Below, piece by piece: positions 3,940 through 9,831 of a stretch of DNA of 47,967 bases (its first letter is position 1; each line of letters opens with the position of its first letter). Under the pieces are notes generated by a model, which was not told the origin of the DNA, made no database searches, and saw only the letters and a list, made by a program, of their open reading frames with translations. Position numbers and translations under genes: made by a program. The stretch is from the NCBI RefSeq assembly GCF_001418575.1, contig NZ_LIQR01000090.1, positions 1-47,967 of the forward strand. The letters are read 5' to 3'. Source of the DNA: Peterkaempfera griseoplana. GTDB taxonomy: Bacteria > Actinomycetota > Actinomycetes > Streptomycetales > Streptomycetaceae.

Positions 3940-4581
3940 CTACGGCAGGGACAGGTCGGGACGGTCGTCCCCGGCCCAGGGGCGGCGCTGCTCCAGATAG
4001 CGGGTGTGGATGTGCTGCCGGCGCTCCTCCGCCTCACGCAGGGTGGCGACCAGGCGGTCGGCCTCCTCGGTGAGCAGCGCCGCCTGCCGGTCCAGCTGCC
4101 GCTCGGGTGCCTCGGCGCCGGGGGTGAGGCGGTTCCACCAACGGGCTCGCAGACAGGCGTCGACCGCCTCGGGCACGTCCTGCCGGATGGTCCGGGAGAG
4201 GGCGTGCAGCGCCTCCGGGTCGCCGGCCAGGACGTCGCCGCCGCGTTCCGGGTCCAGCAGTGCGGCCAGCCGCTCCAGCAGGCCGGAGAAGCGGCTCTCC
4301 AGCTGGGCTTCGACCAGGTAGGCGCGGAGCGCGGCCAGGTCGCCGCGGAGCGCGGAGAGCTGCTCCTCGGGTGCGGGGAAGTCCGGCGCCGGCGGCCGCT
4401 CGGGTGGGGCCAGCAGTGCGCCGACGCCGTAGAGCCCGGCAACGACGAGCGGCCACAGGGAGCCGGTCACGCCGGTGAAGTACAGCACCAGTCCCCCGAT
4501 GGCGAGGGTGCAGCCGGTGAGGTTCTTGCGGGACTCCAGATAGGCCGCCGGGCCCCGCCGGGAGTTTCTACTGGTAACCAC
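3940..4581 (-). CDS. Two-TM membrane protein with cytoplasmic helical domain, last gene of TelA operon
   Basis: 213 aa if translation starts at the GTG 4581-4579, preceded by GAGGAG with a short 5-nt spacing; an in-frame GTG at 4599 gives six more residues but has no ribosome site. It overlaps the end of the upstream VWA lipoprotein gene by 14 bp. Residues about 25-60 hold two closely spaced hydrophobic segments (LTGCTLAIGGLVLYFTGV and LWPLVVAGLYGVGALL). The rest is charged and helical, with Glu/Arg-rich coiled-coil character near the C-terminus. I recognise no catalytic motif. Position in the operon suggests it works with the TelA-like and VWA proteins, perhaps as a membrane anchor or sensor (inference). 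Confidence 0.75.
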   Translation of the reverse strand: MVTSRNSRRGPAAYLESRKNLTGCTLAIGGLVLYFTGVTGSLWPLVVAGLYGVGALLAPPERPPAPDFPAPEEQLSALRGDLAALRAYLVEAQLESRFSGLLERLAALLDPERGGDVLAGDPEALHALSRTIRQDVPEAVDACLRARWWNRLTPGAEAPERQLDRQAALLTEEADRLVATLREAEERRQHIHTRYLEQRRPWAGDDRPDLSLP

Positions 4582-6187
4582 GGATCTCCTCGAAGGCACC
4601 GCTCAGCGAGCTGCCCACCGCGTCGAACAGCCGGCCGCCGGTGAGGTCGGCGATGTGCTGCAGCTCGGCCCGGTCGGAGTCGCCGAAGAGGATCGGGAAG
4701 ACCGGGACGGACCGCTGGTCCGCGGGGAGGGCCGCGTAGAAGGCGTTGAAGTCGTCGGCGCTCTCTCCCGCGGTGTTCTCACCGTCGGTCATGAGCACGA
4801 TGGAGGTGAACCGGTCGCCGCCGGCCTCATCGGCGCGCTGCCCCAGATACCGGTAGGCCTCCTGGAGGCTGCTGTAGATCGCGGTGCCGCCGTCGGCCCG
4901 CAGGGCGTCGGCGTCGGCGCGGATGGCGTCCAGCGCCTGCTGCCGCCGGCCCTCCTCCACGGTGTGGCCCAGCACGCCCTTCACGGTGTCGGCGAAGGGC
5001 ATCAGCGTGACCTCCTCCCGGTCCCTGAAGCGTTCGCCCGGCGCGGCGTCGGTGCCGGTCAGACCCGCGAGGGCGGTCTTGAGCCGGCTCAGCCGGCTGC
5101 CGTCCATGGAACCGGAGGTGTCCAGCACGTACACCGTGCGCGAGGGGCGGCGCAGCTGGTTCTCGTAGCTGTCCAGCAGTCCGTCCGCGACGGCGCGGCT
5201 GCCGGGGAAGGGCAGTTCGCGGCGGCGCCCGGCGGGCAGTCGCGGGTCGGGTGCGACCGAGGCGACCACGGGGCGGCGCAGGGTCTGCCGGGTGATCGCC
5301 TGCTGTGCCCCGGGGCTGCGCAGATAGCGGGTGAGTGCGGTGTACGCGGTCCGCTGGTCGGTGCCGGCGGAGGCCAGCAGGGTCAGCGGATAGTCGGCGG
5401 TGACCACCCCGTCGACCGGGCGGATCACCGTGAGGTCGGTGTGGCTGTCGCGGTTGAGCGACAGCAGCACCGACTCGTAGTTGATCAGCGCGTCCACCGA
5501 GCCCTGCCGGGCGTAGGCCTGGGCCAGCCAGCCCGAGGAGCCGGAGGTCAGCTTCTGGCCGGCGAAGAACCGCTTCAGGGCGGGCGCCGCGTGCCGGACG
5601 TCCTGCTCGGTGAGCGCGGACTGCGCCCCGGAGAGCGCGGAGGCGAGGCCCACCAGTGCGGAGTAGCCGGAGTTGGAGCGGGCCGGGTCGGTCATTCCGT
5701 AGGTCAGCCGGCCCTCGGTGACGGCCTGGCCGATCTGCGCCCAGGTGACCTTTCCGGGGTCCCAGCCGAGCCTGCGGACGGCCTCGGGGCGCACCCCCAG
5801 GGCGACCGGCGAGGTCATCACGGGCGTCTCCGAGCCGATCCGCCGGGCAGCCTCGGGGTGCAGCCGCAGATAGTCGTCGGAGGGCAGCCACACCGCGTCG
5901 TAGCTGCGGTCGGCCTGCCCGGAGGCGATCTGCTGGACGGCGTCCAGGGTGCCGCTGTAGGTGGGGACCACCTTCACCCCGGTGGCCTTCTCCGCGGCCT
6001 TCAGCACCGGCTCCAGGTCGGAGAGTTCACTGCCGGCGAGCACCCGGAGCGTCCCGGGCTGCGGTCGGGCGGTGCGCTGCCCGCCCTGGCCGTCGCCGGA
6101 GCCGCCGCCGGAACCGCCGCCCGTGCAGCCGGTGAGCAGCAGCCCGGCGAGCGCGGCGGCGGCCGCGATGCGCGGTACGGTCCTCAT
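4568..6187 (-). CDS. Lipoprotein with solute-binding domain fused to VWA domain
   Basis: 539 aa from the ATG 6187-6185, which overlaps the TelA-like stop as ATGA. A signal peptide ends in a lipobox, LLTGC with Cys21, followed by a Gly-rich tether. Residues about 45-330 look like an extracellular solute-binding fold of the SBP_bac_11/ModA type (LRVLAGSELSDLEPVLKAAEKATG; MTDPARSNSGYSALVGLASAL). Residues about 350-535 are a von Willebrand A domain with an intact MIDAS: DTSGS near 356-360, a Thr in GGTAIYSS and TDG near 466. The protein should be anchored on the outer face of the cytoplasmic membrane. Solute-binding/VWA fusions next to TelA-like genes recur in actinobacteria; the ligand is unknown. 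No ABC permease or ATPase is nearby, so a transport role is doubtful. Confidence 0.88.
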   Translation of the reverse strand: MRTVPRIAAAAALAGLLLTGCTGGGSGGGSGDGQGGQRTARPQPGTLRVLAGSELSDLEPVLKAAEKATGVKVVPTYSGTLDAVQQIASGQADRSYDAVWLPSDDYLRLHPEAARRIGSETPVMTSPVALGVRPEAVRRLGWDPGKVTWAQIGQAVTEGRLTYGMTDPARSNSGYSALVGLASALSGAQSALTEQDVRHAAPALKRFFAGQKLTSGSSGWLAQAYARQGSVDALINYESVLLSLNRDSHTDLTVIRPVDGVVTADYPLTLLASAGTDQRTAYTALTRYLRSPGAQQAITRQTLRRPVVASVAPDPRLPAGRRRELPFPGSRAVADGLLDSYENQLRRPSRTVYVLDTSGSMDGSRLSRLKTALAGLTGTDAAPGERFRDREEVTLMPFADTVKGVLGHTVEEGRRQQALDAIRADADALRADGGTAIYSSLQEAYRYLGQRADEAGGDRFTSIVLMTDGENTAGESADDFNAFYAALPADQRSVPVFPILFGDSDRAELQHIADLTGGRLFDAVGSSLSGAFEEIRGYQ

Positions 6188-7365
6188 CCGGCCCCGCCCT
6201 CCAGTTCCGTGAGTGCCCGGCTGCGCTCCAGCCGGGCTCCTGCGTCCTGGAGTTCGGCGGTGAGCGTGGAGACGGTGGCCGCCATGGTCTCGGTGGCCTG
6301 GGCCTTGTAGGTGTCGATGGCGTCCAGCGTCCGGTAGATCTGCTGGAAGGCGCCGCGCAGGGTCTCCACCCCGACCGCCGGGTCGGCGGCGATCCGCTGG
6401 ATCTCGCCGCTCTGGCCGGCGAGCATCTCCGCGTTGCCCCGGATGAGGTCCTCGGTGGTTCCGCGCAGCGCGTTGACCTGTTCGACGACCTTGCGCTGGT
6501 TGTCCAGGGCCGAGGCGAGCATCACCGCGATGCGCAGCGCGGTCACGGTGGTGGTGGCGGCCCGGTCGACGCCCTTGACCAGCTCGTCGTTGTTGCGGCG
6601 CACCACGTCCATCGCCAGGTAGCCCTGGGCGCAGACGGCGAGCTGGGTCAGCAGGTCCTGGTGCTTCTGCCGGACGGGGAAGAGCAGGTCGGCGCGGAGT
6701 GCCTCGGCCTGCTGCGGGTCGCCGGCCTCGGTCTCGGCGATGCGCCGCTCGACGGCGGTGTCCAGGGCGTCGGTGAGGACGGCGTACTCCTGGAGTCTGC
6801 CCATGGCCTCCCACAGGCGGGTGCGCTCGGTGTGCAGGGCGGCGCTGTCGCGGCGCAGTTCGTCCTGGCCGCTGCGCAGGCTGCCGACGATCCGCTGCAG
6901 GGTGGCCTGTGCGGAGGCGTAGCGGGCGACGTGGTCGCGCAGTCGGTTGCCGCCGGGCAGTCGGGAGAGCAGCCGGCGGGCGCCTCGGCCGGGGCTGTCC
7001 GCGGGGTCGAGGTCCTCGACGGTACGGCGCAGTTCGACCAGACCCGCGGACACCCGGGAGCCGGCGTCGGACCCGGGTCCGCCGGAGAGGGAGCGCACGG
7101 TGCGCTCCAGCATCCGGTTGGACTGCTGGGCGGCGGCGCGGATGTCGGCGCTGCCCAGGGAGGCGATCTCGCCCAGCCGGGAGGCGAACTCGGGGCTGCG
7201 GGCGTCCAGGCCGGCGAGGCCGTCCACATAGGCGGCGGCGCGGCGTTCCATGTCGGCACGTACGCCGTCGGCCAGCGGCACCAGGCCGGATGCCCGTTCC
7301 TTGGGGACCGGTGCGACCGGCTCCGGCGGGGTGAGGACCAGCGGTGAGTCGTCAGGGGTGGTCAT
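6184..7365 (-). CDS. TelA/toxic anion resistance family protein
   Basis: 393 aa, ATG at 7365, eight bases after the stop of the upstream solute-binding gene. It matches the TelA family (toxic anion resistance, Pfam TelA) over almost its whole length. It is mostly alpha-helical and soluble, with the characteristic segments SNRMLERTVRSL, LWEAMGRLQEYAVL and DALDTAVERRIAE in the first half and VLASALDNQRKVVEQVNALRGTTEDLI and QIYRTLDAIDTYKAQATETM in the second. TelA-like proteins are linked to tellurite and other envelope stresses, and often neighbour TerD or VWA proteins; the molecular activity is not established. The ATGA overlap with the next gene implies fixed stoichiometry with the VWA lipoprotein. 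Confidence 0.9.
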   Translation of the reverse strand: MTTPDDSPLVLTPPEPVAPVPKERASGLVPLADGVRADMERRAAAYVDGLAGLDARSPEFASRLGEIASLGSADIRAAAQQSNRMLERTVRSLSGGPGSDAGSRVSAGLVELRRTVEDLDPADSPGRGARRLLSRLPGGNRLRDHVARYASAQATLQRIVGSLRSGQDELRRDSAALHTERTRLWEAMGRLQEYAVLTDALDTAVERRIAETEAGDPQQAEALRADLLFPVRQKHQDLLTQLAVCAQGYLAMDVVRRNNDELVKGVDRAATTTVTALRIAVMLASALDNQRKVVEQVNALRGTTEDLIRGNAEMLAGQSGEIQRIAADPAVGVETLRGAFQQIYRTLDAIDTYKAQATETMAATVSTLTAELQDAGARLERSRALTELEGGAG

Positions 7366-7373
7366 GCCGGCTC

Positions 7374-8459
7374 CTACTTCTCGTCGCGGGCCCGGCGCGC
7401 GATCTCGTGCATCACCGCGGAGGTGGGCACGGGCGCCTGCCGGACACCGGTCAGCTTCTGGTTGAGGTACGCGGTGTACGGCGCGGCCGCCGCGTTGAAC
7501 TCCTTGGTGTCACCCTGCGGCCGGAACCCGTACCGCACCGCCAGCTGCCGCAGCCGGGGGTCGTCGCGCAGCAGTTCGCCGACGCGCCTGCCGTTCCCGG
7601 TGAACGGCACCAGGGTGTGGTCGCTGGAGACCGTGGTGTCCGGGTAGAGCAGCACCAGGTCGCCGAGTTCCCCGGCCTGGTGCCGGACCAGCAGCGACGC
7701 CACCTGGGACTCGTAGACCAGCACCAGCGGATTGCCGACCCCGCTGAGGAAGTCGCGGAAGGGCGCGTCGCTGCTGGACTGCTGGGCGCCCTGGACGGCG
7801 ATCAGCTTGTGCAGCAGGGGCGCGGTGGCCGCCACCCCGTGGCTGTCGGCGACCACCGCACCACCGTTGGCCACGTAGGAGGCGGCGGCCAGGTAGAGCG
7901 CCCCGGAGTTGGAGGAGAGCGGGTCGGTGCTGGTGACGAAGAGGGTGCCGGTCAGCTCGCTGTGGGCTGCGGAGCCCCTCAGCTGCTGCCAGGTGGTGTT
8001 CTTCTGCATCGCCTTCAGATAGGCGTCCATGCGCAGGATGCCGGGCTGCCCGCTCTGCAGGGTGGCCAGGCCGTTGGCGGCCAGTACCTCGGCGGCGTCC
8101 CGGTGAGCGGCCACCACCAGGGGTGAGTAGAAGGGCCGCAGCGGTCCGCCGGGGTCCTTCGACCTGCTGCGGAGTGCGTCTGCGGGTGCGCTGCTGCTGG
8201 GGAAGGCGAAGTCGTAGCCGCTGGTGTCCAGGCTGTCCATCGCCCATGAACCGGACGTCTCGGTCCGGACCGTCAGTCCGTGGTCGGCGAACGCCCGCAC
8301 CACGTCGGGGTCTGCGAAGAAGTCCGCCTTCTCCGACCCGATGACCCCTCGCACGGTCGTCGTCGCCGTGCTCTGCCCCTTGTCCCGGTCCACCAGGACG
8401 GCGGCCATGATGCCGCCGGCCAACAGGACCGCGAGGGCCACTGAGAATATGCGTCTCAC
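7374..8459 (-). CDS. Membrane-anchored solute-binding-fold protein, first gene of TelA operon
   Basis: 361 aa from the GTG at 8459-8457 (VRRIFSVALAVLLAGG). The open frame continues upstream but this is the first start that yields a clean signal anchor. One hydrophobic segment (about residues 4-22) has no lipobox Cys, so it is either cleaved or acts as an N-terminal anchor. The remainder resembles ModA/SBP_bac_11 solute-binding domains (VIGSEKADFFADPDVV; TDPLSSNSGALYLAAASYVANGG, close in pattern to the SNSGYSAL segment of the VWA lipoprotein). There is no transporter subunit in the operon. Upstream lies a PHO box, so the operon probably responds to phosphate limitation through PhoP. The weak ribosome site is a caveat for the exact start. 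Confidence 0.8.
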   Translation of the reverse strand: MRRIFSVALAVLLAGGIMAAVLVDRDKGQSTATTTVRGVIGSEKADFFADPDVVRAFADHGLTVRTETSGSWAMDSLDTSGYDFAFPSSSAPADALRSRSKDPGGPLRPFYSPLVVAAHRDAAEVLAANGLATLQSGQPGILRMDAYLKAMQKNTTWQQLRGSAAHSELTGTLFVTSTDPLSSNSGALYLAAASYVANGGAVVADSHGVAATAPLLHKLIAVQGAQQSSSDAPFRDFLSGVGNPLVLVYESQVASLLVRHQAGELGDLVLLYPDTTVSSDHTLVPFTGNGRRVGELLRDDPRLRQLAVRYGFRPQGDTKEFNAAAAPYTAYLNQKLTGVRQAPVPTSAVMHEIARRARDEK

Positions 8460-8498: not shown

Positions 8499-8520
8499 TC
8501 GCGGTGAACAGACGGTGAAC
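8499..8520 (-). promoter_or_regulatory. PHO box (PhoP-binding direct repeats)
   Basis: On the minus strand two perfect GTTCACC heptamers (8520-8514 and 8509-8503) are spaced exactly 11 nt apart, the defining layout of Streptomyces PhoP direct-repeat units. They lie 40-60 bp upstream of the GTG of the solute-binding gene and point toward it, where they would cover the -35 region. Confidence 0.75.
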
Positions 8521-8797: not shown

Positions 8798-9562
8798 ATG
8801 ACCGAAGCGGGTGTTCCCATGAGCGACAGCCTCAGCGCGGTGACCGTCCGGATCGCCGGGCACCAGGGCGACGAGATCGAGGCCTACCTGGCCCGCCCGC
8901 AGGGCGAGCAGCGGCGCGGCGGCGTGGTCGTCATCCACCACATGCCCGGCTACGACCGGGCCACCAAGGAGATCGTCCGCCGGTTCGCCGAGCTCGGCTA
9001 TGACGCGATCTGCCCCAACCTGTACAGCCGGGAGGCCCCGGGCGCGGCCCCCGACGACGCCGCCGCGGTGGCCCGCGCCGCCGGTGGAGTGCCGGACGAC
9101 CGGCTGGTGGGCGACGTGGCGGGTGCCGCAGCGGCCCTGCGGGCACTGGACGGCTCCAACGGCAGGGTCGGCGTGATCGGCTACTGCTCCGGCGGACGGC
9201 AGACGGTGCTGGCCGCCTGCAGCCTCGATGTGGACGCCGCGGTGGACTGCTACGGCGCCTTCGTCACCGGCAACCCGCCCGAGGGCTTCCCGCTGAAGGT
9301 CACCAACCTGGTGGACCGGCTGCCGGAGCTGCGCGCACCGCTGCTGGGGCTGTTCGGCGCCGAGGACAAGTTCCCCGGTCCCGAGCAGGTCGCGGAGCTG
9401 GAGCAGACCCTGACCGCGAACGGCAAGGAGTTCGAGTTCCACAGCTACGAGGGCGCCGGGCACGCCTTCTTCGCCGTCGACCGCCCCTCGTACAACGTGG
9501 CCGCCGCCAACGACGGCTGGGAGCGGATCTCCGCCTTCTTCAGCAAGCACCTGGGGGCCTGA
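8798..9562 (+). CDS. Dienelactone hydrolase family protein
   Basis: 254 aa from the ATG at 8798; an in-frame ATG at 8819 gives 247 aa, and the two cannot be separated because neither has a strong ribosome site. It is an alpha/beta hydrolase of the DLH family: oxyanion segment VVVIHHMPGYDRATK (about 44-58), nucleophile elbow GYCSGG with Cys130, acid in GAEDKFPG and His in GAGHAFF near the C-terminus. The Cys-Asp-His triad is complete. DLH enzymes open lactones such as carboxymethylenebutenolide, but many actinobacterial members have unknown esters as substrate. It is followed after 2 bp by the DUF6295 gene, so the two are probably co-transcribed. Confidence 0.9.
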   Translation: MTEAGVPMSDSLSAVTVRIAGHQGDEIEAYLARPQGEQRRGGVVVIHHMPGYDRATKEIVRRFAELGYDAICPNLYSREAPGAAPDDAAAVARAAGGVPDDRLVGDVAGAAAALRALDGSNGRVGVIGYCSGGRQTVLAACSLDVDAAVDCYGAFVTGNPPEGFPLKVTNLVDRLPELRAPLLGLFGAEDKFPGPEQVAELEQTLTANGKEFEFHSYEGAGHAFFAVDRPSYNVAAANDGWERISAFFSKHLGA

Positions 9563-9564
9563 CG

Positions 9565-9831
9565 ATGTGCACCTACACCACGGTCAAGGACAGCGTCGAC
9601 GGCAGCGCCAAGGGGCCGGGCGGTGCCTGGTTCCACGTCTCGGACGTGACGGTGTACTTCGACCACCCCGTGCACGCGATGGCCGAGCACACCCTCAACA
9701 TCGACTTCGCCGATCCCAGCAAGGGTCCCTCGGCCCGGGTCGCCCTGGAACTGACGGCTGAGTCCGCCCGCCGGCTGGTGGCGGCCGTCCAGGAGGCGCT
9801 GGCCGCGGTGCCCGCCGAGCTCACCGTCTGA
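9565..9831 (+). CDS. DUF6295 family protein
   Basis: 88 aa. The ATG lies two bases after the dienelactone hydrolase stop, with GGGGGC-rich sequence upstream. The sequence opens with MCTYTTVKDSVDGSAKGPGG and contains VTVYFDHPVHAMAEHTLNIDF, which I recognise as the small actinobacterial DUF6295 family that regularly follows DLH genes. It has no signal peptide, membrane segment or known catalytic motif. A Cys at position 2, an HPVHAxAEH cluster and several acidic residues could bind a metal (inference). The last five codons and the stop lie in the first unit of a 17-bp tandem repeat. Confidence 0.85.
   Translation: MCTYTTVKDSVDGSAKGPGGAWFHVSDVTVYFDHPVHAMAEHTLNIDFADPSKGPSARVALELTAESARRLVAAVQEALAAVPAELTV

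Follow-up and report, generated by a model that had tools for sequence, protein, structure and literature searches.

The operon and its predicted products

The window analyzed here is the whole of a 47,967-nucleotide stretch of Peterkaempfera griseoplana DNA (contig NZ_LIQR01000090.1, assembly GCF_001418575.1). It carries four close-packed genes on the minus strand, from 8459 to 3940, in the order A, TelA, C, D (Table 1). A and C encode solute-binding-fold proteins, the latter fused to a VWA domain; TelA encodes a protein of the family of that name, and D a small protein with a predicted transmembrane (TM) hairpin. A check of the open reading frames (ORFs) found all of them in place on the minus strand, and thus agrees with a preliminary description of the window as a four-gene operon joined by ATGA and short overlaps. 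The TelA/C junction is an ATGA overlap, and C and D overlap by 14 nt. Scans for a sigma-70 promoter and an intrinsic terminator found none, although such scans are uninformative at this G+C content.

Table 1. Positions of the operon genes and PHO box in the window, and of genes and operons compared at other loci
Feature	Coordinates	Strand	Description	Basis
PHO box	8503..8520	(-)	GTTCACC-GTCT-GTTCACC; pair of direct-repeat units for PhoP (period 11 nt), 44-61 nt ahead of the A start codon	
Gene A	7374..8459	(-)	361 residues, GTG start; solute-binding-fold protein, apparently anchored N-terminally	AlphaFold2; Foldseek/VIA; profile match to C
TelA	6184..7365	(-)	393 residues; 8-nt gap after A	PF05816
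Gene C	4568..6187	(-)	539 residues; lipoprotein with solute-binding domain and VWA	Pfam; predicted model; fold matches
Gene D	3940..4581	(-)	213 residues; predicted N-terminal TM hairpin and soluble helical domain	Alignment; hydropathy; TelA co-occurrence
One-TM third gene, distinct A-C clade	L131 11559-12302			
One-TM third gene, distinct A-C clade	L133 11478-12248			
One-TM third gene, distinct A-C clade	L053 11601-12341			
Vibrio TelA operon	L160 1-8049		pSEA2	
Vibrio TelA operon	L162 2061-10845		pAM7	

At the thresholds used, neither A nor D matches a family of Pfam, NCBIfam or PADLOC. A sequence search of the PDB with A gave no credible match, and fold prediction was therefore used. The AlphaFold2 model of A is confident (mean predicted local distance difference test, pLDDT, 91.9). 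Its fold is nearest to that of the sulfate-binding proteins. SubI of Mycobacterium tuberculosis and ModA are within the first ten Foldseek matches, and the VIA Z score against binding proteins is about 23. Three homologues of A match SBP_bac_11. A hydropathy scan of A shows a hydrophobic N-terminus (residues 1-26) without a lipobox, and it is by this segment that the protein looks to be anchored. No A was found in phages.

C is the only binding protein of the pair with a lipobox (LTGC21). It matches SBP_bac_11 at 8.6e-22 and VWA at 3.8e-10 in Pfam, with the solute-binding domain at about 44-349 and the VWA domain at about 349-539. The AlphaFold2 model has a mean pLDDT of 91.2. Fold neighbors of the binding half include the hexose-phosphate binders AfuA and VcA0625, a pyridoxal-phosphate binder, HptA, and sulfate- and ferric-binding proteins. 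The second half matches the VWA domains of inter-alpha-inhibitor. The VWA domain has an intact metal-ion-dependent adhesion site (MIDAS), a predicted metal site whose residues D356, S358, S360, T435 and D468 (the D-x-S-x-S motif with the distal Thr and Asp) are invariant across 55 homologues. The models of A and C both have the two-lobe type II solute-binding fold, with VIA Z scores of 23-27 against binding proteins. The two solute-binding domains and the intact MIDAS of the preliminary description are thus upheld, the former by the SBP_bac_11 match of C and the predicted fold of A.

The profiles of A and C align over 261 columns with an E value of 2.7e-14, and the motifs GSE, GS/GT, SNS and YE correspond between them. 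On these grounds the two proteins are paralogues that keep the same candidate pocket. In the predicted models the shared motifs sit at strand or helix ends, which is the site of the ligand loops in this fold. The C-terminus of C reads IRGYQ in 62 of 86 homologues; this conservation may in part reflect the overlap of its coding sequence with the beginning of D. A wider family of solitary, membrane-anchored proteins combining a solute-binding with a VWA domain is found at five loci (L190-L194). They are distant from C (E 1e-27 to 5e-38), and no A, D or TelA lies alongside.

The TelA protein matches PF05816 at 8.8e-83 (278.6 bits against a cut-off of 30, covering profile positions 3-331 of 332), and its gene is the only TelA gene of the genome. 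Hydropathy reveals no convincing TM segment, with one borderline window at 1.52; the protein is probably cytoplasmic. Against the PDB it gives weak coiled-coil matches only.

Conservation of the unit and its relation to TelA and D

Sixty relatives were searched at the protein level and 198 genomes of the class were surveyed for TelA; 80 named loci were then taken with 10-kb flanks. The gene caller was tuned to high G+C, and seven loci of low G+C or fragmentary sequence, in which C was not completely called, were left uncounted. Some taxon labels of metagenome-assembled genomes (MAGs), for example that of L114, may be mis-binned. The arrangement A-TelA-C-D is present at 38 loci, A-C-D at 10 and A-C-D-TelA at 3; 17 have A-C with a different third gene or none called, and a few are partial. 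A adjoins C, with at most TelA between them, in 69 of the 70 loci with enough contig, the exception being L103. The junctions recur as well. TelA and C overlap by 4 nt in 29 of 39 cases, C and D by 14 nt in 30 of 55, and A and C by 4 nt in 18 of 31.

The unit is found in Actinomycetota, Deinococcota, Pseudomonadota and other lineages, including plasmid records from Variovorax, Sphaerotilus and Deinococcus. An independent sample of phyla gave A-C-D-TelA at one locus (L187) and the order C, hairpin protein, A, TelA at two more (L188 and L189). Co-location that survives re-ordering argues well for a joint function. The linkage, seen in dozens of genera, is far above chance, so that the genes form a conserved unit, as first proposed; conservation of the neighborhood beyond close relatives, which had been set as a test, extends to several phyla and gene orders. 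The unit is accessory: at least 8 of 296 Actinomycetota genomes have it at a strict cut-off, a lower bound because few candidates were scored.

No permease or ATPase is encoded among the window neighbors tested. A conserved flanking partner was sought in the homologous loci and not found. The adjacent genes are of housekeeping or accessory kinds and unrelated, and ABC_tran is matched by only 5 of 114 flanking proteins. The A-C-D unit is therefore not an ABC transporter operon, which bears out the earlier assessment for this family. That assessment cannot be carried over to TelA operons in general, since a separate TelA operon on Vibrio plasmids (Table 1) has an ABC ATPase and permease. Like the operon here, the Vibrio operon encodes binding proteins, a VWA lipoprotein, a TM-hairpin protein and TelA. 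Unlike it, it shows no detected homology to A or D. One of its binding proteins is NMT1-like, and the two others are OmpA-fused or OmpA-linked.

The survey also bears on the place of TelA, which the preliminary description had counted as part of the unit. No TelA is encoded anywhere in genomes such as those of Kitasatospora, Corynebacterium, Actinoplanes and Nocardiopsis, whose A-C loci in several cases include D. TelA would thus be either an add-on to A-C-D or a repeatedly lost member. The tree of C requires at least 10 changes of TelA presence. Judged from these distributions, TelA is an optional fourth member and not the core.

All 31 TelA genomes sampled carry a D-family protein, and none of the 17 TelA-less ones does (Fisher p 2.4e-13, a value to be read as a guide only, as the 48 genomes were selected by TelA status and relatives are non-independent). 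Outside this sample, some TelA-less genomes (e.g. Kitasatospora) carry D in A-C-D operons. Nearly all copies of D that adjoin A-C have an N-terminal TM hairpin by hydropathy. The D-family protein found beside TelA alone, D', is a soluble domain of about 170 residues, usually with no hydrophobic stretch, and a gene for TerD or for an AAA_lid_6 ATPase lies alongside. Of seven D-family matches away from TelA that were inspected, six lie within A-C-D operons, among them all five near-full-length ones, i.e. those with the hairpin. Micromonosporaceae-like genomes hold both kinds, the hairpin D with A-C and the soluble D' with TelA. The simplest reading of these distributions is that the D domain may be an adaptor serving TelA and the A-C receptor alike.

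D was also considered as a form of XpaC, a candidate that we rejected on sequence. None of 27 members of the D family matches PF10112 (XpaC) at E<=1, and six genomes with D-family genes have no PF10112 match over the cut-off. In a distinct A-C clade of Streptomyces and Pseudonocardiaceae, D is replaced by a one-TM protein of 240-260 residues (Table 1), which is unrelated to D and has no Pfam match. Among the surveyed loci of the A-C class, the third gene is often of this kind.

Ter genes are present beside other actinobacterial TelA genes; TerD, TerB and TerC are absent from the operon and from the neighbors tested. At three loci (L061, L066 and L069) an actinobacterial TelA gene without A-C is followed by an AAA ATPase gene with AAA_lid_6 (CbxX/EccA-like), which in two of them comes after the soluble D'. 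Other actinobacterial TelA genes without A-C adjoin TerD.

A PHO box upstream of A

The sequence GTTCACCGTCTGTTCACC upstream of A (8520-8503, minus strand) consists of two direct repeats with an 11-nt period. The repeats match the canonical definition of the Streptomyces PHO box (PMC7244524). The operon is thus preceded by at least two GTTCACC repeats at an 11-nt period, the sequence criterion of the Streptomyces Pho regulon. The exact box is a single copy in the 8.24-Mb genome, and a reversed-pattern control gave 0. Allowing one mismatch brings the count to 14 sites in the genome, against 0 for the control; one of the 14 precedes a pstS-like gene, the pstS of this genome having a box with one mismatch.

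Homologous loci were scored for a box of at least 12 of 14 matches upstream of A. A box precedes A in 13 of 23 Streptomycetaceae, against 1 of 320 other genes at the same loci. In Pseudonocardiaceae the corresponding counts are 7 of 13 and 0 of 165. Perfect boxes precede the TelA-less Kitasatospora copies (L109 and L151), so that the control belongs to A-C-D. The distinct clade with the one-TM third gene is mostly without a box. In Sphaerotilus, a gene for a PhoX phosphatase lies on the same strand 4 nt ahead of the start of A. Taken together, the operon looks to be under phosphate-starvation (PhoP) control. A promoter of the sigma-E/extracytoplasmic function (ECF) type before A (GGAAC-N-GTT) was also considered. 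It is present in the window but occurs at 9 of 82 loci where about 4.6 would be expected; for want of conservation it was rejected.

A candidate receptor complex and its alternatives

We propose that the operon encodes a surface receptor complex that has no transporter, is made in phosphate starvation and is linked through D to TelA. We give this explanation an even chance of being right. It builds on what the sequences and models themselves contain: the genes, the predicted folds, the MIDAS, the pairing of A with C, the co-occurrence of D with TelA and the PHO box. The anchored A and the lipoprotein C would sit outside the membrane and would bind the same or a related oxyanion or phosphate-containing ligand. 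Through its MIDAS, the VWA domain of C may join the outer parts, or dock on another surface protein, in a metal-dependent manner. D would span the membrane, its soluble domain facing the cytoplasm, and would there recruit TelA, which, where present, would act at the inner face of the membrane. In TelA-less lineages the A-C-D receptor may work alone or with another output. The layout of a ligand-sensing membrane assembly, as initially suggested, accords with the conserved unit, its real binding domains, the intact MIDAS and the lack of a transporter.

The nearest working analogy for such a non-transporting receptor is HptA of the Staphylococcus aureus HptASR system, which senses glucose-6-phosphate for a kinase and feeds no transporter (PMC8774646). 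Like A and C it is an extracytoplasmic binding protein, and its structure (6lkg) is a close fold match of both. It differs in that it signals to a histidine kinase, which is encoded neither in the operon here nor in its immediate neighbors, and in that C adds a VWA domain.

Several points weigh against a receptor complex of this kind. The operon encodes no histidine kinase or other known signaling enzyme. Binders of sulfate, ferric ion, thiamin and polyamines match the fold as well as phosphate-ester binders do, and the fold therefore leaves the ligand of A and C unfixed. The boxes scored are of the Streptomyces type and were found in two families only, with 1 of 46 loci elsewhere at threshold. 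TelA is missing from many A-C genomes and so is not the sole output. We infer the topology of D, the ligand, the contact of A with C through the VWA domain, the contact of D with TelA, and the output. A wider idea is that the operon stands for an undescribed class of surface receptor for phosphate starvation, in which the two paralogous binding proteins, one of them VWA-fused, signal through the hairpin adaptor to TelA, and that TelA serves in general as the cytoplasmic effector of D-family adaptors. We offer it tentatively and lean against it.

The main rival holds that A and C are accessory binders that catch phosphate or its esters in starvation for PstCAB or another ABC importer encoded elsewhere, with the VWA domain and D holding them in place. 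The solute-binding folds of A and C and the phosphate control, with a similar box before pstS in the same genome, agree with such a role, and binding proteins of ABC importers (ModA, sulfate-binding and AfuA types) are folded like A and like the first half of C. A and C differ from these in having no cognate permease or ATPase, in forming an anchored pair and in the VWA fusion. No linked permease lies in the A-C-D loci examined in detail, and the flanks are unrelated. One of the two binding proteins carries a 190-residue VWA domain. Delivery to an importer, moreover, needs no strict pairing of A with C, nor a hairpin protein that shares the domain of a TelA partner. We consider this explanation unlikely.

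In an envelope-stress or defense module, TelA and the hairpin protein would strengthen the membrane against attack by peptides or phages, and A and C would sense the damage. The theme of TelA beside a small hairpin protein is that of xpaC-yaaN. XpaC combines an N-terminal TM hairpin with a helical domain, a layout that D recalls, and xpaC-yaaN is not known to include binding proteins or a VWA domain. In Bacillus subtilis it belongs to the core sigma-W regulon (PMC3498285), which sets it apart from the PhoP-type control here, and D lacks the PF10112 match. In a Dormibacterota MAG the gene immediately upstream of A is of the flotillin type (SPFH/Band_7; L118 5527-7482), and the Variovorax copy has a flotillin gene nearby (L156 1-494); both would suit such a module. 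None of the four proteins matches a family of the PADLOC anti-phage models at E<=1. With D not an XpaC by sequence, no conserved ECF-type promoter motif before A and a phosphate box that implies another trigger, this explanation is improbable. The envelope-stress role of the preliminary description gained no direct support, and the PHO box supports phosphate-starvation control instead.

The last alternative is resistance to toxic oxyanions: in phosphate starvation, phosphate importers would also admit arsenate or similar anions, which A and C would bind outside the cell while TelA and D protect it. It draws on the family name of TelA, on fold matches to oxyanion binders and on a Listeria telA mutant whose susceptibility, as cited in one report, is 2-fold higher to tellurite and 4-fold to nisin (PMC12791056). 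Ter systems, too, combine TelA with a VWA protein, TerF (PMC7824862). The operon here differs from them in having no adjoining TerD, TerB or TerC and in that its VWA domain lies outside the cytoplasm, joined to a solute-binding domain. The unit can do without TelA, and the flanking families listed include no arsenic genes; we see very little probability in this explanation.

Paired binding proteins with a VWA fusion, D and PhoP control were not found together in the literature searched, which did not cover the main comparative genomics of Ter and TelA. Provisionally, the operon type is undescribed. TelA proteins are widespread. The operon ties TelA to a putative extracytoplasmic receptor, to a putative adaptor family (D) that tracks it without exception in the 48 genomes sampled and to a likely trigger, phosphate starvation acting through PhoP. 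The question of its role thereby becomes testable through the ligand of A and C, the binding of D to TelA and failure at low phosphate. The operon also adds candidate members to the actinomycete Pho regulon. In actinomycetes, phosphate limitation triggers antibiotic production.

The operon neighbors tested (oxidoreductase, methyltransferase, dienelactone hydrolase, DUF6295 and others) are unrelated to it. The methyltransferase gene at 3877-3080 was considered as a fifth member and rejected, as Streptomyces homologues have a different gene after D, usually convergent. Genes for a dienelactone hydrolase and a DUF6295 protein (8798-9831) diverge from A across the PHO-box region. Further along the window, the product of the ORF 834-1748 resembles an ECF sigma factor extended by a long C-terminal domain. 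The ORF overlaps an FAD/NAD oxidoreductase gene (1745-2944) at the latter's stop, and the two, judged by eye, look like an ECF41-like pair.

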